Positions 1,695-62,895 of a stretch of 64,000 nucleotides of DNA are shown in pieces. The number at the start of each line of letters is the position of its first letter. Positions within the stretch are counted from its first letter, which is position 1. The notes below the pieces were generated by a model. The model saw only the letters and a list, made by a program, of their open reading frames with translations, was not told the DNA's origin and searched no databases. Source of the stretch: a virus; the IMG/VR virus record IMGVR_UViG_3300043786_000977, positions 1 through 64,000 of that record; one strand, 5' to 3'. The position numbers and the translations under genes are program-made.

Positions 1695-2360
1695 ATGACA
1701 ACATTTGAAGTATATATTTACGGCATGGTTAAGGCGTGCGAAGCACGTGGTGTAGACCCGGTCGAGGTCATAAAGACTGCTGCGCCTTTCAGTACGCCAG
1801 AATGGGAAGCGAAGCAACGGGATGCGGATGCACTTACCCGCGGTTGGAATAACCTAGGGCGCGGTATTTCGACTGCGTGGAATAGTGCGTCATGGCGTGG
1901 TGCCGGGCATGCCCGGGAATGGCAAGACAAAGTACAAAAGAGGGATACGATAGGGGCGGGAAATGACCAGATAGCAGTTGCTATGCGCGACAGAGAGTTC
2001 AGGGAGAACAGGGCTGCACAATTGCGCCAGCTTGCGGAATTGAAAAAGGAACCCAGCACGAATTCGTCATCTACCAGTGGATCTCGTATACCGGGTGGTG
2101 ACATATTCTATGATCCACAATACGGACGTGCTTCGGGTCGGTACGAGTATGCACCGACCCGTCCGTATATGACGCCCATGACTAATCTCGATGGCACTCC
2201 GCGGCCACCACCAGTACAGCGTCCGCCCGTGTCGCCCCTGCCGCCAGCGCAGCCCCCAGCACCAGCGGCACCTACGCCGCCAGCACCAGTGGCACCTACG
2301 CCGCCAGCACCAGCGGCACCTACGCCGCCAACACAGCTGCCTAAACCTGTGGTGCGCTAA
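1695..2360 (+). CDS. Head-region protein with Pro/Ala-rich C-terminal repeat, function unknown
   Basis: The 221-residue protein starts at ATG 1695, 4 nt after a GAGGG ribosome binding site and 7 nt after the previous stop. An in-frame start further upstream would overlap the previous gene deeply and is less likely. The N-terminus is a predicted helix pair ending in Val-Ile-Lys-Thr-Ala-Ala (about residues 24-30), resembling the N-terminus of the gene at 10534. The middle is charged and helical. The last 50 residues are almost only Pro, Ala and Thr, encoded by three 24-bp tandem repeats. Such tails are usually flexible linkers. Context suggests a minor or internal head protein; function unknown. 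Confidence 0.6.
   Translation: MTTFEVYIYGMVKACEARGVDPVEVIKTAAPFSTPEWEAKQRDADALTRGWNNLGRGISTAWNSASWRGAGHAREWQDKVQKRDTIGAGNDQIAVAMRDREFRENRAAQLRQLAELKKEPSTNSSSTSGSRIPGGDIFYDPQYGRASGRYEYAPTRPYMTPMTNLDGTPRPPPVQRPPVSPLPPAQPPAPAAPTPPAPVAPTPPAPAAPTPPTQLPKPVVR
2256..2327 (+). repeat. Three tandem 24-bp repeats coding Pro-Ala-Pro-Ala/Val-Ala-Pro-Thr-Pro
   Basis: Three consecutive 24-bp units (2256-2279, 2280-2303, 2304-2327) differ at a single base (gcg/gtg codon). They encode the Pro/Ala-rich tail of the gene at 1695, and their near identity suggests recent slippage or duplication. Confidence 0.9.
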
Positions 2361-2363
2361 TTT

Positions 2364-3341
2364 ATGCAAATTGGTAACACAATCATTACGACACCTGAGG
2401 ATCATCCTACACAGTTTGATCCTGCGTGGCGTAGTGCCGTGGCTGCGGCCTTAGCTGATAACCCAACAGCCGTTATCTCGGCCGATTATATGCAGTATAA
2501 GAGGGATGAGTGGATCAAGGAACATAAGGCGTACCTGATAGCGACGCGCACCCCGAATAGGGTGTTGTCCAAAGATCAGAAGGCGTTACGTCTGGCATCT
2601 CGGTTCTACCAAGGCAATCGGTCGAGTGATGTAAAGTTTAAACTCGAACCTCTTCTACTTACTGCGGTACCAGTCCCTATCATTTCACTGGATATCGGTG
2701 GTGGTCAGGTAGATCCCCAGGTGTTTGAGGCTTATGAGCGGTTATATTTCAACATACGATTGGACGACGGAAGTCTGCATCCTTCATTTCATATCAGGGA
2801 GTATTTTGCAATGCCACAAGGACAACCGAACCCGGAAACCCCAGATGAAGTTTTATGGCGTGTAATCGCAGCCCACATGGGTTATGATGTACTTGTTTCA
2901 ACATGGTTGTGGACAAAAGCGCACGGATTGAGTAAGTTATCTCCCAACGTATTGATGCAGTCGCTATGGACAGCGGCACAGGCGACACAATTTTTGGAGA
3001 TATTCGGAAAACGGGTTAGCCACTTCAACCTGGCAGCGTCTATGAAGTCATGGACCGATCAGGAACGAATGTTACGTGAAGCGGGTACTGTAGGTGTGGA
3101 GCAGAATGGTCAATCACAACTTTTGTTGAAATTCTTGAATCTATGCGCTCCGGAGATATTGCAGGTGGCACGCGATGTTGACGCGAATAAAGTTAGGACT
3201 ACCGAGATACAGAGCCGGCTTCTGTCTCAGCGTAACGTGACGAGTCAGTCAGTAGTTGACCACGGAGCAGATATCGGAATCGAGGGTCTCACGAAGTTGA
3301 TAGAAGGACAATTCAAATCAGGTAAGCAAATGGAGCAATAA
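2364..3341 (+). CDS. Conserved-looking head-region protein, function unknown
   Basis: The 325-residue soluble protein begins 3 nt after the previous stop; the ribosome binding site is weak, so translation is probably coupled to the upstream gene. I see no signal peptide, membrane segment or catalytic motif that I recognise. The protein is mixed alpha/beta with Trp-rich stretches in the middle (about residues 155-200). Unlike its neighbours it carries no clear hydrophobic-x-Lys-x-Ala motif. Being embedded in the head operon suggests a structural or assembly role, perhaps at the portal vertex, but nothing in the sequence proves it. Confidence 0.6.
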   Translation: MQIGNTIITTPEDHPTQFDPAWRSAVAAALADNPTAVISADYMQYKRDEWIKEHKAYLIATRTPNRVLSKDQKALRLASRFYQGNRSSDVKFKLEPLLLTAVPVPIISLDIGGGQVDPQVFEAYERLYFNIRLDDGSLHPSFHIREYFAMPQGQPNPETPDEVLWRVIAAHMGYDVLVSTWLWTKAHGLSKLSPNVLMQSLWTAAQATQFLEIFGKRVSHFNLAASMKSWTDQERMLREAGTVGVEQNGQSQLLLKFLNLCAPEILQVARDVDANKVRTTEIQSRLLSQRNVTSQSVVDHGADIGIEGLTKLIEGQFKSGKQMEQ

Positions 3342-3343
3342 CC

Positions 3344-4825
3344 ATGACGACAAACGGACCATTTAAGGATAGACTGATGACGGCGCTGCACTCGGCAGTG
3401 GGCTACTTCAATCAGGACAACGACCCCAATGCTGCAGTGGTGAAGGCAGCCCACGATGCAGATTTTAACGTGGATCAGACAACGCGTCTGGTCGAAATGT
3501 TTAATACGGCACGTACCTTGTATCACTACAAGAACGCGTCAGACAGAACAGCGACCTTCACCCTGGCTGCTGCAGACGAGGTACTACCTATGTTGTTCGC
3601 GGTACCAGTAACTGTTGCAGAGAAGGCCGCGGCAGCGGATTATAGCACATACGAGCAGCGGGAACAGAGTTATCACGAAGCCGATTATATGGCTAAGGCG
3701 GCTGCGAGCATAAACGCACCGGTTGATGCGTCACTGTCTATGCAGGCTGTGGCTGATCAGGCTATGCGTGCGTTGCGTAATCTGCGACAGACGGCCAAGA
3801 TCGCTGAGGATGAGGCACGTATCGCCGGGCATAATGCGGCGCGTACGTTCCAGAAACTCGCTTCATTATTCGCTTACGGTGCAGATCGCCGCGTACTTGA
3901 AGATCGTTATGCACGACTTGTCGTAGGACACAAGGACGGCGAGTGGCAACCTGTGATTGTTAAACTTGGTGAATTCGTGCCCGCCCATAATAAAGCACCT
4001 GAAGCAATGTTCACCAAGTATGCACGGGTGTATGTCATTGACGATCGCGATCTGCACCCACACTTGGAACTTATGAAAGAGGCCCGGGACTGGATGCAGG
4101 CCGAAGCAGAGATGTTGGCTGCGTCCAGCCAGTTTACCAAGGAAGCCGATGACTTCGAACGTGAGTATCTCGTCGAACTATCCAGTTTTTTTCCACTCCC
4201 GGCCGCGCCCGGTCTCGCTTCGTTCATACGGCCTGAACTGATTAAAGCAGCCTTCGTACCGAACCCAGGCGGTGGACAGCAAGGCGGTGGACAGCAAGGC
4301 GGTGGACAGCAAGGCGGTGGAAAGCCAGGCGGTGGTCAGAAAGATAAGCCGGATAAGCCAGAAAGTGATAAACCCAATCGTTGGTTCACGACTGAACCCT
4401 ACGGCCTTGATGCTGTTCCGTCAGCGTTGTCTGACGGCATGAAACTGTCCCCTGGATCAATCAATGTCGAAGTGGAACGTGCATTCACGGAACCGATAGC
4501 ACGTAATAACCAGGCACTGAGCGAACGGTTAAAGAATGTCCAGCGATCCATTATGCTTCAGGACCTAATGGTGAACGATCCAGTATTATCTGAGGAAGCT
4601 CCCGAGGCTGTGGCGCAAGCGTATAGCGCGATGTTGCAGTTGGCCCCGGAGATGGCAGGTAACAAAGAAGTTGCGCGTGCCGTGTTGCGCCAGATGGTAC
4701 ACTCAGTTGCGGTCAGCCCGTACGATGCTGATATCTGGACGAAGCTGGAAGGCAATATCCGTAACCTACGCGGTAAGGGTGCGCCTATACCGCAACAACA
4801 GTCCGCTGGTGGAGGTAAACGATGA
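3344..4825 (+). CDS. Head-region protein with Gly/Gln repeat linker, function unknown
   Basis: The 493-residue protein starts 2 nt after the previous gene. Its N-terminal 310 residues are Ala-rich and helical with at least six hydrophobic-x-Lys-x-Ala motifs (for example Leu-Ile-Lys-Ala-Ala near residue 303 and Phe-Thr-Lys-Glu-Ala). A low-complexity Gly-Gly-Gly-Gln-Gln linker (about residues 309-333) and a Lys/Asp/Pro-rich stretch follow, then a helical C-terminal domain of about 140 residues. One Lys-Ala motif lies just before the linker, which would suit a processing site. It overlaps the next gene by 4 nt (ATGA). Probably an internal or structural head protein; function unknown. Confidence 0.6.
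   Translation: MTTNGPFKDRLMTALHSAVGYFNQDNDPNAAVVKAAHDADFNVDQTTRLVEMFNTARTLYHYKNASDRTATFTLAAADEVLPMLFAVPVTVAEKAAAADYSTYEQREQSYHEADYMAKAAASINAPVDASLSMQAVADQAMRALRNLRQTAKIAEDEARIAGHNAARTFQKLASLFAYGADRRVLEDRYARLVVGHKDGEWQPVIVKLGEFVPAHNKAPEAMFTKYARVYVIDDRDLHPHLELMKEARDWMQAEAEMLAASSQFTKEADDFEREYLVELSSFFPLPAAPGLASFIRPELIKAAFVPNPGGGQQGGGQQGGGQQGGGKPGGGQKDKPDKPESDKPNRWFTTEPYGLDAVPSALSDGMKLSPGSINVEVERAFTEPIARNNQALSERLKNVQRSIMLQDLMVNDPVLSEEAPEAVAQAYSAMLQLAPEMAGNKEVARAVLRQMVHSVAVSPYDADIWTKLEGNIRNLRGKGAPIPQQQSAGGGKR
4268..4342 (+). repeat. 15-bp tandem repeat (Gly-Gly-Gly-Gln-Gln linker)
   Basis: Three perfect copies of a 15-bp unit (4268-4312) are followed by two imperfect copies (4313-4342). They encode the glycine/glutamine linker of the gene at 3344. 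Confidence 0.9.
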
Positions 4826-5178
4826 ACATACGTGTTTTTAAGAAACTGGACAACGGTGTTTACCAGATATCCGTGCATACGATGGATTGGAGTGAGGCTG
4901 ATAAAGCATTGATGGTAAAATACGGAGAACCCACGATAGACCTGGGCGGTTCATTCGTAGGTGAGACTCCGTATCTGGAATACATACTATCCACCAAACT
5001 CGTGCTTATCATGTCTGAATCCCCGTTTACGCAGCGTTTCGATTCCCGCGATGAAATCGATGCAGATGACCGGGCGACGTTGTGGAAGACCACCATAGTC
5101 GAACGTATCACATCTGAGTTGTTGAACTTACGGGCGAATGCTGATACATTTACAGGTGAAGAGGTAACGACCGTATGA
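4822..5178 (+). CDS. Small head-operon protein, function unknown
   Basis: The 118-residue soluble acidic protein is locked into the operon by ATGA overlaps at both ends. The N-terminal half looks beta-rich and the C-terminal half helical. No motif is recognised. Conserved position between two probable head genes suggests a small virion or assembly protein. Confidence 0.55.
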   Translation: MNIRVFKKLDNGVYQISVHTMDWSEADKALMVKYGEPTIDLGGSFVGETPYLEYILSTKLVLIMSESPFTQRFDSRDEIDADDRATLWKTTIVERITSELLNLRANADTFTGEEVTTV

Positions 5179-5834
5179 TTAAACAAGCAGACATGAATCA
5201 ACTTCTTGCCGGCCTTAAAGATAAGGCATCACGTGGCGGTGCAGATATCAGTAAGTGGTATGCACGCTTGGATCCTGCAATGAAAGCTACGATCCAGCGC
5301 GGGCTTATCGGCGCTGCAGGTGGCGCGGCACTCACAGGCGGTATCGCGGCGGCTACACCACGCGACCCTGAGGATAAGGGCGGGGTAGTGGGACCGGCCC
5401 TGCTTGGTGCGTTGCTGGGCGGCGCTGGTGGTGCCCTGCTCCCGTATGGCGCGAAGATGCTTTCCGGCGGCGCTGGTGCGGGGGACACAAACAAACGGCC
5501 TATGGGTGCACGTGCGTTTGAGACCGTTACTGCGCCACTGGCTTGGCACCCGCTTATGTTCGGAGGCGGTATATATGGTGCCGCTAAGGCACGGCCTATC
5601 ATTTCCGAAGCAATGAAAGCCACGAAAGCATACAGGGCACAAGGTGGTAGTGGGCTGCGTGGTGCAAAAGAAGTCTTGTTCAACGGGTCCCATCCATTCT
5701 GGGCTAAGAAGCAGGTGATGGATGCCGCAGGTAAGGGCTGGTTAAAAGGTTCGCCGCGTGGCCGCTTGGCCATGCTCCCGTTGCTGGCCGGCCTGGGTTA
5801 CGCGGGCGATAAGTATTTGAAGGGGGAATGGTAA
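5175..5834 (+). CDS. Glycine-zipper membrane-type head-region protein
   Basis: The 219-residue protein has an N-terminal Met-Ile-Lys-Gln-Ala segment, then two Ala/Gly-rich hydrophobic stretches (about residues 37-60 and 71-97) with small-xxx-small spacing typical of glycine zippers that insert or pack in membranes. A third apolar stretch lies at the C-terminus. Two related-looking proteins occur in the window, at 10534 and 47885. A virion-internal protein that helps DNA cross the cell membrane would fit, but a structural or scaffold role cannot be excluded. The stop overlaps the next start (TAATG). Confidence 0.55.
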   Translation: MIKQADMNQLLAGLKDKASRGGADISKWYARLDPAMKATIQRGLIGAAGGAALTGGIAAATPRDPEDKGGVVGPALLGALLGGAGGALLPYGAKMLSGGAGAGDTNKRPMGARAFETVTAPLAWHPLMFGGGIYGAAKARPIISEAMKATKAYRAQGGSGLRGAKEVLFNGSHPFWAKKQVMDAAGKGWLKGSPRGRLAMLPLLAGLGYAGDKYLKGEW

Positions 5835-7249
5835 TGAGTGGCATGCTTAAACTCATCTACTCGTCAGCATTCGACAGCGGTGTTGACGTAGCAATGCGGA
5901 TCATCGAAGATCCTGCAGCACTGACTAAATCTGCTGGTACCGTATTCGGTCTCGACTACGATAAGCTACGTCCGGACGATCAGCATGTCGGTATCCACGT
6001 GACTGCATTAGGTGCGTTTGAGCGTTACGGTGCGAATCGTAATGGCGACTCATTCCCGAAGTTAGCGTGTGTCAGGTACCACGACACGTTCGTTAAACAC
6101 GGTGCGCTGTTCCGACATCATCGAAACAAGGATCGTGAAAAGAACCTGGGTTCGATTAAAGCGTCGGCTTGGAATCCAGTAATGGATCGTATCGAGTTAT
6201 TCGTTCATGCTAATAAGGAGCGGGCTGCAGATGAACTGACCCGGTTGGAGAAGGAAGGCGAGATACCTTTTTCCATGGCATGCAAAGTCGCGTTCGATCG
6301 TTGCAACCGCTGTAACACAGTACGTAAGAATGGCAGCGATCCACGCCAGTGTGATCACGTCAAGTACGAGTTGGGCAAGATGGCCGACGACGGTACTGTT
6401 ACGTGTACACATAACGATGAACCGGATTTCTTCGACATCAGTTTCGTAGGGCGGCCGGCCGATCGTATTGCGTGGCATCTTAAAGTTGCGGCAGGCGAAC
6501 TGATTGACTCGATAAAATTGGCTGATGCAGAAGGACTGTGGATACCTGATTATATCGCAATCGAGTCTTCAGCAGGGCAGGTTAAGTTAGCGCATTTGAA
6601 GCGCCTGGTCGCAGCACAGCAGATGTACTACGGATGGTTTACAAAACAGGCAGCAATACAAACACCAAAGGACCGCTATTTCTACGAGTTGAGGAAAGCG
6701 GCAGGAGTATCGTTAAGCGATGAAGTATTGACGAAGTTGCGTGAATACGAGCCTGCGGTTACGTTTAATGCTCTCGCACGGGCGGGTGTAATTTTGGACG
6801 TACCGTCATTCTTCAAGTATGCAATGGGTGATACGTATAGCGAAATCGCGTCATTAATCGATACGATAGCAGCGACAGTCCCTGTAGTTCTTGATACGGC
6901 GGTGAAGCAAGGTGACTGTCAGAGATTGTGTAACGACTGCACGTTTGATGTAGCAGCAGATAGGTCTACACAGATACCGAATGGCTTACTTACTAAATTG
7001 GCTGGGGCATCTTTGGTTGGTCCTTGTCGGGATGAACGGATTATCTCCGTTACCCTGGATGGAAATATACCAAAGTTTGCTGTTGACAAAGAACAACGAA
7101 TGGGGTTTAATATACCTGAAATAGTGGTGTTGGCGGAAAAGTATGCCGCCTACAAGTTATCAGCCCTAACGGCTGTGCTTGGATTCCACAAAGATACTGA
7201 TGTAGATTCACTGATAGCTATAACGGCTACACAGAATCTAGTGAGATAG
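5834..7249 (+). CDS. Putative prohead maturation protease (HK97/S78-like) with long C-terminal extension
   Basis: ATG 5834 is preferred over ATG 5828 because the AGGGGG ribosome binding site (5821-5826) is 7 nt away from it, against 1 nt; this gives 471 residues. The N-terminal 215 residues follow the layout of the caudovirus prohead serine protease: a His pair (His95-His96) after a hydrophobic strand, Gly-Ser-Ile downstream, Phe-Ser-Met with candidate catalytic Ser147, and the family's late Asp-Ile-Ser-Phe-Val-x-x-Pro-Ala element (201-209). A Cys/His-rich insert (Cys157, Cys160, Cys173, His175, Cys191, His193) sits between the Ser and the late element and may bind zinc. The C-terminal half carries most of its many Lys-Ala motifs and is not recognised; it could be a scaffold-like or self-cleaved region. 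The position directly before scaffold and capsid genes supports the call. Confidence 0.68.
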   Translation: MSGMLKLIYSSAFDSGVDVAMRIIEDPAALTKSAGTVFGLDYDKLRPDDQHVGIHVTALGAFERYGANRNGDSFPKLACVRYHDTFVKHGALFRHHRNKDREKNLGSIKASAWNPVMDRIELFVHANKERAADELTRLEKEGEIPFSMACKVAFDRCNRCNTVRKNGSDPRQCDHVKYELGKMADDGTVTCTHNDEPDFFDISFVGRPADRIAWHLKVAAGELIDSIKLADAEGLWIPDYIAIESSAGQVKLAHLKRLVAAQQMYYGWFTKQAAIQTPKDRYFYELRKAAGVSLSDEVLTKLREYEPAVTFNALARAGVILDVPSFFKYAMGDTYSEIASLIDTIAATVPVVLDTAVKQGDCQRLCNDCTFDVAADRSTQIPNGLLTKLAGASLVGPCRDERIISVTLDGNIPKFAVDKEQRMGFNIPEIVVLAEKYAAYKLSALTAVLGFHKDTDVDSLIAITATQNLVR

Positions 7250-45625: not shown

Positions 45626-46618
45626 ATGAATACAAGTGATCGCATACCACTGATCCCGCCCACGCGGGTTAAGATTGCCGTCTCGATTCTGTCCGAGACA
45701 CAAGACTATAATCACCGTCTAATGAACATTCCGGCGATGTGGCGTAGTACACGCGGCGCTGGCGTCAAGGTCGCTATTCTGGATACAGGTCTGCCTAAGC
45801 ATGTCGATCTGTTACCCTCCGGTGGTAAGAGTTTTATTGAAGGGTATCTGCTCGATACAAACGGGCATAGTACACACTGCGGTGGTATTATCGCAGCAAC
45901 CGCCAATAACAATATGGGTGTGATGGGCATTGCACCGGACGTTGAAGACTGGTACGGGGCAGTCCTGGATGGTGATGGTCAAGGTAGTATTGATTCCATT
46001 ATCAACGGCATTCGGTGGGCTGTAGACGTTGTTGGCGCCGACATCATCAGTATGAGTCTAGGTATACCGGCCAATGCACGCTACGAACGAGCACTGGAAG
46101 CAGTGTGCCAGTATGCTGTGAACCAGGGCGTCGCAATATTTGCCGCGGCTGGCAACGAGTACGGTGCTGTGGGTCAGCCCGCGCAATACGATTGCGTATA
46201 CGCGGTTGCCGCAATCGATAAGAACTTCACACCAGCAGATTTCTCGAATCGGGGACAGTCAGTCGACTTTGCGGCCGGCGGTGTAGACGTCTTTTCGACC
46301 TACCTTAACGATACGTACGCCAAGTTGAGTGGTACGTCTATGGCTACTCCTGCACTCGTGGGTGTCGCAGCACTCATTCTCAGCGACGCCAGGCAGGGCG
46401 CACAGCCCCGTAAACTGACACCGGCTGAGTTGGGCGCCAAACTACGGAAGATAGCATTTGACGTCGGGCCTGCTGGCGTAGACGATGCGACAGGTATCGG
46501 AATTCCTGTCTTCCAGTCGTCAGGTACCGAACCCGTCGTACCACCTGTGGTAGTCCCGGGCTATCCGACTCACCGGCCCTGGTGGCAATACCTGTGGCCT
46601 GGTTATTGGTGTCTCTGA
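45626..46618 (+). CDS. Subtilisin-like serine protease (S8 family)
   Basis: The 330-residue protein starts 6 nt after AGGAGG. All catalytic elements are visible: Asp53 in Ile-Leu-Asp-Thr-Gly, His81 in Gly-His-Ser-Thr-His-Cys-Gly-Gly, the oxyanion Asn177 in Ala-Ala-Gly-Asn-Glu, and Ser238 in Ser-Gly-Thr-Ser-Met-Ala-Thr-Pro. There is no signal peptide and only a short N-terminal region, so it is probably made active inside the cell or packaged. The C-terminus is Pro/Trp-rich. The His motif has Ser and Cys where most subtilases have Gly and Val. It may process virion or host proteins; the target is unknown. This is distinct from the prohead protease at 5834. Confidence 0.88.
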   Translation: MNTSDRIPLIPPTRVKIAVSILSETQDYNHRLMNIPAMWRSTRGAGVKVAILDTGLPKHVDLLPSGGKSFIEGYLLDTNGHSTHCGGIIAATANNNMGVMGIAPDVEDWYGAVLDGDGQGSIDSIINGIRWAVDVVGADIISMSLGIPANARYERALEAVCQYAVNQGVAIFAAAGNEYGAVGQPAQYDCVYAVAAIDKNFTPADFSNRGQSVDFAAGGVDVFSTYLNDTYAKLSGTSMATPALVGVAALILSDARQGAQPRKLTPAELGAKLRKIAFDVGPAGVDDATGIGIPVFQSSGTEPVVPPVVVPGYPTHRPWWQYLWPGYWCL

Positions 46619-55957: not shown

Positions 55958-56016
55958 GGCGTCAACGATAGCGATACATTCAGCCGAATATTGTCGAACA
56001 CAGTGGGAGGATCGTG

Positions 56017-56670
56017 GTGAATCTAAGTTATCCCCGCCAACAAGCACTACAGTCCCCTGAGACACTAGCCACAGTCATTCACACGATCTTGCGTGAACAG
56101 TACGGTGAAGAGGTGTATGACTGGGACCCGGTAACAGTCTACCTGGAGACACAGGCAGATTTCCGTGCAGATATGTGTTCGGAGGCGATCGATCGCTGGT
56201 GTGCCATTCAGGTGGTTATGACCAGCGACGCGTTCTTCAAGCGTTTAGATGCCTTCCTGGGTATCTGTAACACAATAGCGGATGGTCAGCCCTTCTTCGG
56301 TACATTCGACCCTGTAACAGTGGAGGAGGCTGCCTGGACGATCGCAGAGGTCGCGTTCAATCGGGAACTGCTCCCATTCTCATATGCTATCAAGCAGTAT
56401 CTGCGGACGATACTGAAACAAGAGGGTTACACAGAATCGACATACCCTGCAATCTTTGCAGAGGTCTTTGATAAACAACCTGACGGCGACACCGTGCGCG
56501 CCGGTCTGGCTGCTGTAAACAATAATACAAACCTCGATACGTACCTGGACGACCAGATAGCCGACATGGTCTCCCAGTTCAACCGTATACCCGATTTGAA
56601 GGGTATGGATGACATCATCCTTCGACGGGGCTTAGAAGAAGCACTACAGTCGGCAGGAGAGAAGAAATGA
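56017..56670 (+). CDS. Helical protein of unknown function
   Basis: The GTG at 56017 lies 6 nt after GGGAGG; the GTG at 56014 is only 3 nt away from it and less likely; 217 residues. It is helical, acidic and soluble, with Trp-rich segments and no recognised motif. It overlaps the holin-like gene by ATGA, so the two are co-translated. It could be a virion protein or a partner of the membrane protein. Confidence 0.5.
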   Translation: MNLSYPRQQALQSPETLATVIHTILREQYGEEVYDWDPVTVYLETQADFRADMCSEAIDRWCAIQVVMTSDAFFKRLDAFLGICNTIADGQPFFGTFDPVTVEEAAWTIAEVAFNRELLPFSYAIKQYLRTILKQEGYTESTYPAIFAEVFDKQPDGDTVRAGLAAVNNNTNLDTYLDDQIADMVSQFNRIPDLKGMDDIILRRGLEEALQSAGEKK

Positions 56671-56972
56671 GATCAGCATTACTAACAGTGGAGTTCTGGG
56701 TGACGATGGTAACGAACGTCGTCGGTTTAGTTGTCCTGTTCGGTGGACTATCCGCGGATAAAGCAGATTCGCTGAAGTCGACCCTGACAGTGATCATAGG
56801 TGCCGTACTACCGCTGGTCGCGTCGACAGTATACGCCAAGTCGCGTAGTGATCTGAAACGCACAATTGCAGATGCAACACTTTATCGTCTAACGCCTACG
56901 GATGCAGACGGTAAGGTACGCACTGCTTCAGTGGACGACGCGACAGCTGTTTTAAAACGTCTGGGCATCTAA
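56667..56972 (+). CDS. Two-span membrane protein, holin-like
   Basis: The 101-residue protein has two hydrophobic spans (about residues 9-28 and 38-56) separated by a short polar turn with Asp/Lys, followed by a basic segment and a soluble tail. This size and topology are those of class II holins, and also of several small phage membrane proteins. No endolysin gene is seen nearby, so a lysis role is only a possibility. The stop overlaps the next start (TAATG). Confidence 0.4.
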   Translation: MRSALLTVEFWVTMVTNVVGLVVLFGGLSADKADSLKSTLTVIIGAVLPLVASTVYAKSRSDLKRTIADATLYRLTPTDADGKVRTASVDDATAVLKRLGI

Positions 56973-58708
56973 TGACCAACGTACGTCCAGAAAAACCGAC
57001 AGGCCCCGGTAATCGGGGTCTGTCGACTACCGTTACCCGTGAGCTCGGAACCAAGACCGGTGCTTATGCAGGGCTTGTCAAGATCGCACAAGGAGTGTTA
57101 GGCGCTGTCCGAAGCGGGGTGCTTTCGCCTTTGTCTAAAGCCAGAAGTATTACGAGTGTAGGTAACGCGGTCACCCAAGGTCTGCCCAGTTCTACTTCAA
57201 ATAGTCTGCCAGGACGCGCCATCGAGACTGCGGATACGGTACTAGGCACTACTGCAAGTGGTGTCGGTTTGACCGGTTACGGTGCTGAGTTGACGGGTGC
57301 TGCACTTCGGGGAATACCTCTTGCCGCTAACACGGTGGCGACTACAAAAGGCATAGCGGGAGCCGCGGGTCGTGTTGCCGTACCCTTGGCGCTCGCAGGG
57401 CATGCGATTGATACAGCCCGCTTAATTAACGATCCACGGGGAGTGACTGATGCGGCTGCCGCCAATATTCAGGATTACGGTGACAGCTTCGGCAGTGCGA
57501 TGAAAGCAGTTGGGCATAATACGCTGCAAGCAGTAGGCTCATCTATTCCAACAATCGCAGCTACAGTTCGTGGTGTAGGCGAATTAGGTTCACAACTCGT
57601 GGAAAACAGACGCCTCGCTGCTCGAGATCGACAGCTTGCACCGCGGTATCGTATACTTCAATTACAACAACAGCAACGGCAACGGTTAAAACAACTGCAG
57701 CCACCACAACAGGCCGGGACGTTCGTACAGAAGACTAGTATGTTCTCAGGCCTCGTCAAGATCGCCCAGCAGAACTTTGCTCCAGGTATCGTCGACAAGG
57801 CAGTCTACGGCGATGTGTTGGGTACCCTGAAACCCGGCGACATCACTGACTTCGTATTGCAACACCACAGTACAGTACGTAACCCCAAGTATCCACATTA
57901 CGACATGCGTCTAGGTACCAAGGATACGAATCTTTTCAGTTGGGCCATACCCAAGGCAGAATTGCCGCGTCCAGGCACATCCAAGATGCCGATCCCGCAG
58001 ACTCAATTGCATACGTACCAGTACGGTAGCTTCGAAGGTAAGATCCCACACGGATATGGCGCCGGCGTAGTAAGAATGGCCGACAAGGGTAAGGCAGTCA
58101 TCACCCGTGTCACGCCAAACACGCTCCATTTTACCCTGGGGCATACCAAGGTACCTACACGTTACGTGCTTGTCCATATCGGTGGACGGGACGGTAAGAT
58201 GTGGCAGTTAATCGCGAAACCCGAACCAGGTAAGGTACCGGGCGCGGACGAGGAACCCATCTACGCACGGATAAACGCCGTCGACCAGGACGATGCGATC
58301 CAACAGGCAACCCAGGTCCAGGCGAAAATTGACAAGGCTGCGTCGCTTATTCCGTTGCGCTTCATCAACAAGAAGGGCGGGGTGAAAGCATCAGCGGCTG
58401 TTGAGATTGCAGATACCGCTGAACTGCGTCGCATTGGTTTATCCAAACGTGCATCGCTACCTGCCAATCACGGTATGTTCTTCGATAAGGTCGGTGCCTT
58501 CTGGATGAAGGATGTTCACTTTCCTTTAGACTTGGTATTTGTCGATCGACATGGTACGGTACTCGAGAAGCACGCGATGCCAGTAGACAAGGGCGGACGT
58601 AAGTTATATAGACCATCTAGCGCTGACGTTGCGCATGCGATTGAACTCCCGCACGGTTGGTGTGACCGTTATGGGATAACGACGGGTGACATTGTAAAGG
58701 CGGGTTAA
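56972..58708 (+). CDS. Fusion of LigD-type 3'-phosphoesterase domain and DUF192 domain, probable virion cargo
   Basis: The 578-residue protein has three parts. Residues 1-250 are Ala/Gly/Thr-rich with weakly apolar stretches and a Gln-rich end, unrecognised. Residues about 293-415 match the phosphoesterase domain of bacterial NHEJ ligase LigD: Phe-Val-Leu-Gln-His-His (294-299), His309-Tyr-Asp311-Met-Arg313-Leu, Ser-Trp-Ala-Ile-Pro-Lys328, His347-x3-Tyr351, then Phe-Glu-Gly-Lys-Ile-Pro and Gly-Tyr-Gly-Ala-Gly. The known catalytic and metal residues of the family all have counterparts, so it may trim 3' ends. Residues about 475-576 match DUF192: Gly-Met-Phe-Phe, Phe-Trp-Met-Lys-Asp-Val, Pro-Leu-Asp-Leu-Val-Phe-Val-Asp. 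Leu-Val-Lys-Ile-Ala-Gln occurs twice (35-40 and 261-266), just before domain borders. Confidence 0.78.
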   Translation: MTNVRPEKPTGPGNRGLSTTVTRELGTKTGAYAGLVKIAQGVLGAVRSGVLSPLSKARSITSVGNAVTQGLPSSTSNSLPGRAIETADTVLGTTASGVGLTGYGAELTGAALRGIPLAANTVATTKGIAGAAGRVAVPLALAGHAIDTARLINDPRGVTDAAAANIQDYGDSFGSAMKAVGHNTLQAVGSSIPTIAATVRGVGELGSQLVENRRLAARDRQLAPRYRILQLQQQQRQRLKQLQPPQQAGTFVQKTSMFSGLVKIAQQNFAPGIVDKAVYGDVLGTLKPGDITDFVLQHHSTVRNPKYPHYDMRLGTKDTNLFSWAIPKAELPRPGTSKMPIPQTQLHTYQYGSFEGKIPHGYGAGVVRMADKGKAVITRVTPNTLHFTLGHTKVPTRYVLVHIGGRDGKMWQLIAKPEPGKVPGADEEPIYARINAVDQDDAIQQATQVQAKIDKAASLIPLRFINKKGGVKASAAVEIADTAELRRIGLSKRASLPANHGMFFDKVGAFWMKDVHFPLDLVFVDRHGTVLEKHAMPVDKGGRKLYRPSSADVAHAIELPHGWCDRYGITTGDIVKAG

Positions 58709-58773
58709 TAACGTTGCTATTAACGTTATAACTGATTGTGTATACACACCGCCATTTTAAGGTGGAGGATACG

Positions 58774-61700
58774 ATGCGATTTTTAGGTATAGTACTTGTA
58801 GCATTACTTGGTTTGATCCCGGTATCTCACGGGCAGAACGCTACGCTTGCTCAACTCGGTGCCCGTGGTGTAACCGAGGTTGGCGGGTCCAGCATATACG
58901 CCCATTATATGCTACGTCTCGGACCTGACGGGCGTATCACAATGGCCGTGTTACCTGCTGGTCTCGGCGTACCTGTTCCTGGGTCACAGATCGCTTATCT
59001 CGATCCTGTCACCGGTGTCGATGATCCGTTGCGTGTAGGCGGACCGACAACGCCTTACAAGACGTTAAATTACGCTACGACCACGTACCCGAGTAACGCC
59101 GTGTCCGGAGTCATTTACGTTTTGGCACCAGGTACATATGCATCTACCCTGATTGATACGACAACTACTACGGGTAGACGCACGCTTACGTTGTTAGGTT
59201 ATGAGACCCGACGTACGTATATACCAGAGGTGAAGTACTACGGAAGCAGCGGCGGTGACGTGACCGTCACGTTACACGGTGTGCATGTTGGTAAACTCTG
59301 GCAAGCCAACAACAAAGCGATGACGGTATACCTGACCGGGAATGCCCGGATTGATTCGTTGGAAATGAACGGTGCCAAGCCCTGTACTGTGTATCGTGAA
59401 TCCGGGACTGTCATTGGATCATTCACAGGGTCATTGATGTACACGAACCAATGGCTCGACACAGCGACGCAGATGGGGTATACGCCGACCAATACGGCGC
59501 ACTGGTATGGTAGTGAGCCTCTGACGATTGCAGACGCGTTACACGCGCTGGCCGGCCGGTGCCCTGTTCCGTACGGGACGGTACCTGGCGATATGTTGAC
59601 CTGGGATGGATCCAACTGGGTACGTGTTGCGAACGGTACTACAAACGATTTCCTCATCGGAGGCACCATGCCGTCATTCCAACCGCGTTATATCTGGCCT
59701 GGCACTTCGGCTGGCGCTGTACCTTATTGGGATATCGGGACAACCAACTGGTTATCAGTCACGGGTACCACGAATAGCCAACATGTCCTGTTCGGTGGTG
59801 TGACACCGGCTTTCGGTAGGTTACAGGCGACACATATGGATTACATCAACGGTACGACAACCACGGTACATGCTGTACTTGGTGATTATGCAGTACGCCT
59901 TAATAACCTGGAACTTGTCAGTAACCTGGTCGTATGGGCCGCGAACAGCTGGAGCAATAGTGCTGCCCGCGGCATTACAAATAATCAGGTTGCATTATGG
60001 GATTGGGCCGCGAACAGCTGGAGCAATAGTCCCGCATTCGGAATCACGAGCAACAACATCACGTTATGGACAACCGCGGCAACAAATTGGGTCGGTAGTG
60101 CTGCTTTTGGTATCACGTTAGAGGATACGGGTCGCTGGAACACGTACATGACCAACAGTATACCGATACGTTACTTACGCCGTGAGGGCGCTCTGTTAGG
60201 TCAAACCATAGTCTTCGACGGTACCAACTGGGTTTCTGCCGTCGCGGATTGGTGGATCACGAACGGTCCGGAACGTATGGTAACAGTCGAGGGGTATACC
60301 AACACAGTTGACAAAGCCTTCTTGACTGATGGAACACGACCGATGACAGCTCGAATTCCAATCTTCGTGGATGATGGCGTTGCTGCCATCTCAATCGGGG
60401 CGTGGCAAGGTACAAGTTACGTTTACAACGTATTCGGTGAACTCTATTTGCGAGATAACACAAGGCCCGGTTATAGAATTACCACAGCTAAAGAGTTGGA
60501 CGATTATGCGCGAACCAATTACGTGACAGACATCGTGGTCGCTTCCACCAACCCAATCCCTAACTGGATTATATCTTCCACCAACCCAATCCCTAACTGG
60601 ATTATATCTTCCACCAACCCAATCCCTAGCTGGATCATGTCCGCTACCAACCCCATCCCCTCGTGGATAGCCTCTGCGACCAGCCCCATTCCTAGTTGGA
60701 TCACAGCCTCCACCTCAGGTCTCGTGAGAGCGACCATTACAAATGGTCTTGCTTCCACCAATTACGTGATTGCGTCAACTAACCCTATTCCCTTATGGAT
60801 AACTTCTGCTACAAACCCGATCCCTAGCTGGATAACTTCTGCAACAAACCCCATTCCTAGCTGGATCATATCCGCCACAAACCCTATCCCTAGCTGGATA
60901 ACTGCTTCGACATCAGGTCTTGTTAGAGCAACAATCACGAACGGGCTGGCTTCAACCAATTACGTGATTGCTGCAACCAACCCTATCCCTGGCTGGATAA
61001 CTTCTGCAACCAACCCTATCCCTGGCTGGATAACTTCTGCGACCAACCCTATCCCTAGCTGGATAACCTCTGCAACTTCGGGTCTCGTAAGAGCAACAAT
61101 CACGAACGGGCTGGCTTCCACCAATTACGTGATCGCTGCAACCAATGGACTTGTAACGAAGACTATTACTAACGGCCTTGCTTCGATCTCGTATGTGAAC
61201 GGTGTTACAAGTGGCATACCTGCAATGATAACTGCTGCTACTAACAGTCTTGTAACAAAGGCTATCACGAATGGTTTGGCCTCTATCGACTACGTGACTG
61301 GAGCAATCTCCGGTATCCCTATTTATGCAACAGGGAACAATATCTATGTGGACAATCAGAGAACAGATCCATTCACACCAGACGGCACAATCATGCGTCC
61401 GTATGCAACAGTGTCCGCAGCTATGGCCGTAATCGGCAGTTCACAACCGGCAGACTGGGAGAATGTCACGCTCCGTTTCTACGCCGTGAAGGTGATGCCT
61501 GGAACATACGTCGAAGATGTGACGGTCCCGTGGAAGCCTTTCGTTTCAATAGACCTGTCATCTGCGGTCATTGTGGGTAACATTACTCGTTCAATTCCCG
61601 ACGGCGACTTTTCTACCAGGGTCTCGACTCTGGTTATCAAGGGTGATTCGTTACGTCCCGCATATCTGGACGGACAGCATACGGTGATTGGTATTGCTGG

Positions 61701-62895
61701 TAAGGTCATATTTGAAGCGGCTTCGTCGAGTCTTGGAATGTCTCCTTTCCACGAACTACATGTAATTGATGCCGGTATATCGGGAGGAGTTGAGTACAAG
61801 GGAACCAGCAATACAAACTCTGGTCAATCTGGACACATCTTCTTGCGTGATTCACAAGTGGGTACGATCCAATCCATAGAAGGTTGGGCTGGCGTTACTC
61901 TGTTCTCATACGGCTGGGGTGGTGGTCATACAGGCGGTGGATACGCAGGTAGTGGCATAGGTTCACTGATCGGTAGCGTTCTGCCTTATAATCTTCAATC
62001 GACGATGATCAGCGGCGGCATGAACCTCACAGACGCTTATCCCGGAACCAGTCCAGAGATGTTGTGGCACAACGTCAGATTTGAAACTAATTTCATATAT
62101 GTCGTTACCAATGTTACTTATGGAGTTAAACTCGATACAGCCTCTTACAATTCTTGGCTAGAAGCATCGTTGCCGTCTGAGCGTGGAGTTTGGACCACCG
62201 ACGGTAAGATGGTGCTGACTGATTACGGTTCAGGGTCGTTTGGTAATGCCACGAATATGTTCCGTGGTGTCGGCACAACGGGAGCAGTGACCAGCGTATC
62301 TGCGGACACCAACAAGTACCTGAGGGGTGATGGTAACTGGATAGCAGTTCCGATGGGTCCTGCTGGAACTAACGGAGTTAATGGAACTAACGGCTCTAAC
62401 GGTGTGGCCTTCGTGACTATTTCCAATGTGGTAACACTCGCCTCCGGCTCTTCTGCTTATGTGAGCAACGTGGTGGTCGGAACCACGAACCGCCTGACGT
62501 TCGGCATCCCTGCCGGTAGGGATGGTGTAATTACTAACAGCGGGTACATGGCCATCACCAACTGGCCGACCGCTGCTGGCATCACCAACATCATCACCTT
62601 GGTTCCCGGGTACACCATCTATAACTTAACCGTTACAAATCAACCAACGGTGATTAATTTTGCTTTTTCTAATTCACCAATAGCGAGTCAGGCAGTCAAC
62701 TTCGAGTTGGTCTTGAAGCAGACAACCACCAACACGTATATCTATTTACCAGGAACGAATCGGGTGTATTACTTCTCGACCCCCACCACCAACGCAACGG
62801 TAGCAAACCAAAGGCATTACTCAAGCTGGCGTGTGTGGATGGAAGGCTCAACCACAAATATCTTCTGCAACCAATGGCTGACGAGGAACCCATGA
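58774..62895 (+). CDS. Very large fibre-like protein with signal peptide and tandem repeats
   Basis: ATG 58774 lies 5 nt after GGTGGAGG, giving 1373 residues. Residues 1-20 form a signal peptide (Arg, then a Leu/Val/Ile core, Ser-His-Gly before Gln21). The next 500 residues have phage-fibre style phrases such as Gly-Asp-Met-Leu-Thr-Trp-Asp-Gly-Ser-Asn-Trp-Val. Residues about 590-790 are 11-residue repeats around Thr-Asn-Pro-Ile-Pro-Ser-Trp-Ile, alternating with a Leu-Val-Arg-Ala-Thr-Ile-Thr-Asn-Gly unit. A right-handed-helix-like domain follows (Arg-Pro-Tyr-Ala-Thr-Val-Ser-Ala-Ala, about 880), then short Gly-x-Asn triplets (about 1195) and a beta C-terminus. Likely an adhesin or receptor-binding fibre; the signal peptide is unusual for a virion protein. 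Confidence 0.55.
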   Translation: MRFLGIVLVALLGLIPVSHGQNATLAQLGARGVTEVGGSSIYAHYMLRLGPDGRITMAVLPAGLGVPVPGSQIAYLDPVTGVDDPLRVGGPTTPYKTLNYATTTYPSNAVSGVIYVLAPGTYASTLIDTTTTTGRRTLTLLGYETRRTYIPEVKYYGSSGGDVTVTLHGVHVGKLWQANNKAMTVYLTGNARIDSLEMNGAKPCTVYRESGTVIGSFTGSLMYTNQWLDTATQMGYTPTNTAHWYGSEPLTIADALHALAGRCPVPYGTVPGDMLTWDGSNWVRVANGTTNDFLIGGTMPSFQPRYIWPGTSAGAVPYWDIGTTNWLSVTGTTNSQHVLFGGVTPAFGRLQATHMDYINGTTTTVHAVLGDYAVRLNNLELVSNLVVWAANSWSNSAARGITNNQVALWDWAANSWSNSPAFGITSNNITLWTTAATNWVGSAAFGITLEDTGRWNTYMTNSIPIRYLRREGALLGQTIVFDGTNWVSAVADWWITNGPERMVTVEGYTNTVDKAFLTDGTRPMTARIPIFVDDGVAAISIGAWQGTSYVYNVFGELYLRDNTRPGYRITTAKELDDYARTNYVTDIVVASTNPIPNWIISSTNPIPNWIISSTNPIPSWIMSATNPIPSWIASATSPIPSWITASTSGLVRATITNGLASTNYVIASTNPIPLWITSATNPIPSWITSATNPIPSWIISATNPIPSWITASTSGLVRATITNGLASTNYVIAATNPIPGWITSATNPIPGWITSATNPIPSWITSATSGLVRATITNGLASTNYVIAATNGLVTKTITNGLASISYVNGVTSGIPAMITAATNSLVTKAITNGLASIDYVTGAISGIPIYATGNNIYVDNQRTDPFTPDGTIMRPYATVSAAMAVIGSSQPADWENVTLRFYAVKVMPGTYVEDVTVPWKPFVSIDLSSAVIVGNITRSIPDGDFSTRVSTLVIKGDSLRPAYLDGQHTVIGIAGKVIFEAASSSLGMSPFHELHVIDAGISGGVEYKGTSNTNSGQSGHIFLRDSQVGTIQSIEGWAGVTLFSYGWGGGHTGGGYAGSGIGSLIGSVLPYNLQSTMISGGMNLTDAYPGTSPEMLWHNVRFETNFIYVVTNVTYGVKLDTASYNSWLEASLPSERGVWTTDGKMVLTDYGSGSFGNATNMFRGVGTTGAVTSVSADTNKYLRGDGNWIAVPMGPAGTNGVNGTNGSNGVAFVTISNVVTLASGSSAYVSNVVVGTTNRLTFGIPAGRDGVITNSGYMAITNWPTAAGITNIITLVPGYTIYNLTVTNQPTVINFAFSNSPIASQAVNFELVLKQTTTNTYIYLPGTNRVYYFSTPTTNATVANQRHYSSWRVWMEGSTTNIFCNQWLTRNP
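59935..60030 (+). repeat. 27-bp direct repeat within fibre-like gene
   Basis: A 27-bp sequence occurs at 59935-59961 and again at 60004-60030, coding Trp-Ala-Ala-Asn-Ser-Trp-Ser-Asn-Ser in both. Confidence 0.85.
60543..61140 (+). repeat. 33-bp tandem repeats in three blocks (Thr-Asn-Pro-Ile-Pro-Ser-Trp-Ile)
   Basis: Units of 33 bp are tandemly repeated; 60543-60575 and 60576-60608 are identical, and so are 60973-61005 and 61006-61038. The units are grouped in three blocks separated by a conserved segment coding Ser-Gly-Leu-Val-Arg-Ala-Thr-Ile-Thr-Asn-Gly-Leu-Ala-Ser-Thr-Asn. Confidence 0.9.

Follow-up and report, generated by a model that had tools for sequence, protein, structure and literature searches.

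The open reading frame at positions 56972–58708 of the window (the whole 64,000-nucleotide stretch analysed, from viral record IMGVR_UViG_3300043786_000977) encodes a 578-aa protein, which we interpret, with a probability of about 0.6, as a ligase-less descendant of a phage-specific protein that combined a LigD-like 3'-phosphoesterase (PE) with a following ATP-dependent DNA ligase (PE-LIG). A deletion would have fused it to a DUF192 neighbor, and its PE domain would be active on DNA 3' ends in a late, possibly packaged product. The features of the protein and its surroundings are as follows:

56014..56670, + strand: 218-aa gene of unknown function, the locus marker in all 6 genomes in which the locus was read
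56667..56972, + strand: holin-like gene (phrog_526 match, E-value 6e-5) with a counterpart in the related contig G001
56972..58708, + strand: 578-aa reading frame comprising an Ala/Gly-rich N-terminal part, a LigD-type PE, a putative ligase motif I remnant and DUF192
56972..57769, + strand: N-terminal residues 1–266 (43% Ala+Gly+Ser+Thr, net charge +15)
57074..57091, + strand: first LVKIAQ element, residues 35–40, a motif of the KxA[QSEDA] type
57752..57769, + strand: second LVKIAQ element, residues 261–266; the related G002 protein starts where this element ends
57848..58216, + strand: PE (LigD_N) domain, residues ~293–415, with Q297, H299, H309, D311, R313, S323, H347 and Y351
58316..58348, + strand: putative ligase motif I remnant VQAKIDKAASL, residues 449–459
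58397..58699, + strand: DUF192 domain, residues 476–576
58738..62895, + strand: 1385-aa downstream gene with a weak tail-protein match and a counterpart at the same place in G001

Both domains had been proposed in the earlier note, and they are borne out by Pfam, by sequence matches in PDB and by the predicted fold. LigD_N (PF13298) matches residues 303–401 (54.9 bits, cut-off 31.1, E-value 1.1e-14) and DUF192 (PF02643) residues 476–576 (75.4 bits, curated cut-off 27, E-value 3.9e-21), while phmmer searches of PDB retrieved the LigD PEs 3p4h, 3p43 and 3n9b together with the DUF192 proteins 3pjy and 3m7a. DUF192 is a common domain for which, to our knowledge, no function is known. A structure prediction, for which the earlier note had asked, agrees with the profile matches: the AlphaFold2 model of residues 260–578 (pLDDT 82.9) was assigned by Foldseek to both families in PDB (3p43, TMt 0.85; 3p4h, 0.84; 3pjy, 0.77 with E-value 5e-10). 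Domain matches, aligned catalytic residues and model taken together, the original observation of PE and DUF192 is therefore correct, and the E-values, the fold and the conserved catalytic residues rule out chance profile matches. The N-terminal 266 residues have no homolog in the record that contains the window or in G001, their only match, by chance, being an Ala/Gly-rich stretch of another viral contig, L051.

In LigD from Pseudomonas aeruginosa, Mn is bound by His42, His48 and Asp50 and the phosphate by Arg52, His84 and Tyr88, with Gln40 and Ser61 shaping the PE site (PMC8656161). The counterparts of these eight residues, as aligned, are those given above for the PE domain. The Mn-binding His/His/Asp and phosphate-binding Arg/His/Tyr sets of the superfamily are all present, and the active site is complete as judged from the alignment. 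Six of the eight (H309, D311, R313, S323, H347 and Y351) are identical in all 21 PEs compared, bar one Y-to-W replacement. The catalytic residues originally claimed are thus all there and align with the P. aeruginosa set, H299 being the likely metal ligand from the pair 298/299, but K328, listed among them, is not conserved and is replaced by G in G001.

The record that contains the window (G000) has a length of 208,908 bp (~209 kb) and derives from a large uncultured bacterial virus. Its end and start overlap exactly over 127 bp, inside a portal-like gene, which makes a complete genome probable. Among the encoded products are a tail sheath and a baseplate wedge protein as well as RNA polymerase subunits, PolA (family-A DNA polymerase) and Thy1. 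The PE-DUF192 reading frame lies within the structural (late) gene cluster, and its ATG overlaps the stop codon of the preceding gene. The statement that no ligase, polymerase or Ku is encoded nearby holds for the neighborhood and, as to Ku, for the genome, since Ku (PF02735) was found neither in G000 nor in the G001 fragment; however, the genome does possess the family-A DNA polymerase and an ATP-dependent ligase, the latter encoded by a separate gene at 101052–102176, 43 kb from the PE-DUF192 frame. A search for the host gave a single match among genome contigs, a possibly misbinned contig of 5.7 kb that is assigned to a Cryomorphaceae MAG. Elsewhere in G000 (124,001–208,908, L006–L010) we observed one protein each with Peptidase_C14 (caspase-like), Anti-Pycsar Apyc1, RlaP, Band_7 and DUF2828.

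Searches with the conserved protease gene and the major-capsid-like gene identified six related viral contigs (G001–G006). Across most of its 126,754 bp, G001 is syntenic with the window phage, and it carries the corresponding locus at the same place, between the holin-like gene and the large downstream gene. Where G000 encodes the Ala/Gly-rich part, PE and DUF192, the G001 protein comprises PE, a zinc-ribbon-like segment, InPase, a HAD-like segment (this and the zinc ribbon recognized by eye) and DUF192. An HNH endonuclease gene splits the G001 InPase between profile positions 52 and 57; this gene (L013:2943–3287) shows overlapping stop and start codons, the downstream half is preceded by a GGAGG-like ribosome site, and an Rfam search around the insertion revealed no intron. 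The arrangement is a split gene of the homing-endonuclease kind. In G002, PE and a DNA_ligase_A_M domain (7.9e-11) are encoded by one gene, directly followed by a separate DUF192 gene with an ATGA overlap. G003 contains DUF192 alone, G004 InPase, a middle domain and DUF192, and G005 the middle domain and DUF192; in G006, a 57-kb fragment, neither domain was seen. DUF192 is thus present in five of the six related contigs (six of seven records with the window counted), and the part in front of it varies. Its presence in most versions with differing partners suggests that DUF192 is the steady part and that the locus is a site of domain swapping, at which the enzyme module is exchanged.

Such constancy could mean that DUF192, as the most constant part of the locus, carries the selected function and that PE is a passive leftover, as would befit a protein whose ligase has already decayed and a locus that in G003 consists of DUF192 alone. 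We regard this as improbable, because all the PE catalytic residues are kept among G000, G001 and G002 in spite of an overall identity of ~50%.

PE-based and ligase-based scans of viral contigs revealed additional phage PE-LIG proteins. In L051 (224 kb, IMGVR_UViG_3300046559_001153), positions 2136–6446 form a single frame of 1436 aa, in which an RNA polymerase beta' subunit is followed by an Ala/Gly-rich stretch, PE and an ATP-dependent ligase; the beta' part is 38% identical to the window phage's own beta' (E-value 5e-133), and the gene adjoins a portal-like gene. PE-LIG was also found in L066, L067, L069 and L070, with a weak additional HAD_PNKP match in L069, whereas L068 shows the ligase part only, the gene being cut off by the contig end. 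In a tree of 21 PEs, the domains from the window, G001, G002, L051, L066, L067, L069 and L070 form one phage-only clade that is distinct from the PEs of bacteria, archaea and other viruses (support 100/100). This separation rules out contamination by bacterial LigD. A ligase follows PE in six of the eight members (G002, L051, L066, L067, L069 and L070), one of which is also the RNA polymerase beta' fusion. The identity of the G002 ligase rests on profiles and motifs, because the AlphaFold2 model of the G002 PE-ligase reached a pLDDT of only 48. The L070 protein (L070:7179–10988, IMGVR_UViG_3300045051_000909) has 1269 aa and combines PE and ligase with DUF5661, a metallopeptidase-like HEIGHA motif noted by eye and Ala/Gly-rich segments. 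In a further contig (L024:7515–9065, IMGVR_UViG_3300009149_000020) a LigD-PE precedes a primase/polymerase-like segment (DxD and SGGGYH, by eye), and two genes for multisubunit RNA polymerase follow immediately downstream.

The impression that the fusion is rare held up in deposited sequences: a tblastn search with the PE domain gave no LigD-PE match at E <= 1 among 50,697 GenBank phage records, and in the same records the only matches to PE-LIG queries were with the ligase part of ordinary ligases, so that at the sensitivity of these searches no PE-LIG is present. Plasmids yielded only bacterial LigD-type sequences to the PE domain; viral and genome contigs, searched with the whole protein, the PE domain and window-specific patterns, yielded only the known relative or nothing.

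The company of the PE domain bears on its substrate. Phage proteins of this kind could serve in counter-defence or nucleotide processing, with damaged RNA ends or a nucleotide signal, instead of DNA ends, as the target of PE hydrolysis, and the orthologs offer some grounds for this: G001 combines the split InPase and the HAD-like segment with DUF192, G004 has InPase with DUF192, and InPase is among the domains of injected polyvalent proteins (PMC5512222). Nevertheless, in its closest relatives PE is joined to a DNA ligase, in one of them also to a HAD_PNKP-like end-healing domain, and the PE residues match those of enzymes acting on DNA 3' ends. We therefore consider the nucleotide role unlikely and, since relatives have ligase fusions and a PNKP-like domain, favor a role in nucleic-acid repair.

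The link between the window protein and PE-LIG is also visible in its linker. Motif I of the phage PE-LIG ligases reads VQ[A/E]KIDGA, mostly within GSSVQAKIDGAxxL. The window linker, TQVQAKIDKAASLI, has motif I intact up to the aspartate and then the start of DUF192, so that VQAKIDKAASL stands against VQAKIDGAxxL of the PE-ligases. This remnant, with a length of only ~11 residues, aligns to motif I of the G002 ligase with a score of 53 (best of 1000 shuffles 34) and to that of L051 with a score of 49 (best of 1000 shuffles 39). No other trace of the ligase domain is present in the window protein, whereas G002 and other relatives have it. The PE-LIG relatives and the remnant suggest, as the most likely origin of the fusion, a deletion that removed the ligase and joined the rest of a PE-LIG gene to the neighboring DUF192 gene. 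Alternatively, a ligase could have been inserted in G002, although more distant relatives likewise carry PE-LIG. The earlier picture of a ligase-less PE joined to DUF192 thus needs revision, as the relatives have a PE-ligase gene that adjoins or replaces it and the linker keeps ligase motif I. An assembly chimera is ruled out by this remnant and by the orthologous locus in related contigs.

According to the reading that we prefer, the deletion would have begun in ligase motif I and ended where the adjacent DUF192 gene starts. PE would be an Mn2+-dependent 3'-end-healing enzyme that removes a 3'-phosphate or 3'-ribonucleotide from DNA, and sealing would be left to a ligase acting in trans, either the phage's own at 101 kb or that of the host. 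The protein would be a late product, possibly packaged and cut into domains at KxA motifs, and would act on ends or nicks of the injected or packaged genome. We infer the PE activity from sequence comparisons; for packaging in the virion the indications are indirect, namely the place of the gene among the late genes and the late-protein KxA motif at domain borders.

The proposed likeness of the LVKIAQ elements to a head-protein motif agrees with motif counts in two phages. KxA[QSEDA], a motif class picked post hoc, occurs at twice the expected frequency in late proteins only (60 vs. 30.6 in shuffles for G000 and 66 vs. 30.8 for G001; 8 vs. 8.3 in early proteins); R, E or other spacings in place of KxA give little or no enrichment. 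In all relatives K-x-A-Q is found close to the N-terminus of the major-capsid-like protein. The sites in the window protein lie close to the N-terminus (residues 37–40), where PE begins (263–266) and at the boundary between PE and DUF192 (455–458). It is possible that KxA[QSEDA] is a maturation-protease site of this phage group, an idea we treat as a hypothesis because the motif class was chosen after the data had been seen. In phage SPN3US, proteolytic maturation occurs at A-X-E sites, and the internal head proteins include the virion RNA polymerase (PMC10052503). The KxA sites at domain borders would suit a comparable process. No prohead protease was identified, and a subtilase present in the window (45626–46618, Peptidase_S8, E-value 1e-42) is a candidate for the processing protease. 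This subtilase is 68% identical between the window phage and G001 and is among their most conserved proteins.

A variant of the same explanation, overlapping with it in confidence, is that the protein stays out of the virion and, as a late enzyme of the cytoplasm, mends 3' ends while the DNA is replicating or concatemeric and still to be packaged. A phage with its own ligase, PolA and other DNA-metabolism genes could employ such an enzyme, and we regard this variant as a serious, if less probable, contender; the position of the gene in the structural cluster, the late-protein motif at the domain borders and the fusion of PE-LIG to an RNA polymerase subunit beside a portal-like gene in one relative argue for packaging instead.

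The window PE shares its fold and the complete set of metal- and phosphate-binding residues with the LigD PE superfamily, including P. aeruginosa LigD PE and the stand-alone archaeal enzymes 3p43 and 3p4h, but it belongs to its own phage clade, has extra residues inserted between the first metal histidine and the second, and is not accompanied by a polymerase, Ku or ligase in the same chain. The six PE-LIG proteins resemble LigD of bacterial NHEJ in having PE followed by an ATP-dependent ligase; in contrast to NHEJ, no POL domain was seen, G000 and G001 lack Ku, and the window protein no longer has the ligase. Polyvalent phage proteins (Iyer et al. 2017, PMC5512222) are similar as multi-enzyme, domain-swapping proteins, and the orthologs from G001 and G004 carry InPase, which is absent from the window copy; LigD-PE and DUF192 go unnamed in that paper. 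In mycobacteriophages Omega and Corndog, according to the citation of Pitcher 2006 in PMC7719229, a phage Ku works with host LigD; as far as that citation goes, the likeness lies in the exploitation of LigD-type end processing by a phage, and the difference in that here the LigD-like parts are encoded by the phage and there is no Ku. A survey of ~3,000 actinobacteriophages found no NHEJ components (PMC7719229), and a survey of 224 jumbo phages makes no mention of LigD or DUF192 (PMC7824862). DUF192 itself agrees in sequence and predicted fold with COG1430 (3pjy, 3m7a), but the solved members are small bacterial proteins, whereas in these phages it usually sits C-terminal to enzyme modules that change.

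The individual domains, and multidomain phage proteins with swapping enzymes, were known before; as far as the searched collections and papers go, the phage-specific PE/PE-LIG clade, its fusion to an RNA polymerase subunit, the connection with DUF192 and the ligase loss that can be seen in the window are new. The known tie of phages to LigD-type repair is a phage Ku borrowing host LigD, and here we find a phage-only clade of PE and PE-ligases. That its members occur in large phages, among late genes and in one case within an RNA polymerase subunit, suggests that DNA-end repair is part of genome delivery or packaging. It is a tentative and rather doubtful extension of this view that large phages encoding a multisubunit RNA polymerase of their own deliver with the virion a PE-LIG machine for end healing and sealing that is independent of Ku, of which the window phage would retain the healing half joined to DUF192, with a ligase in trans; if so, this machine, in one phage part of the RNA polymerase beta' chain, would mend the genome at nicks and ends as it enters the cell. 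The window copy preserves a record of ligase loss and places DUF192 in a specific, testable phage context.
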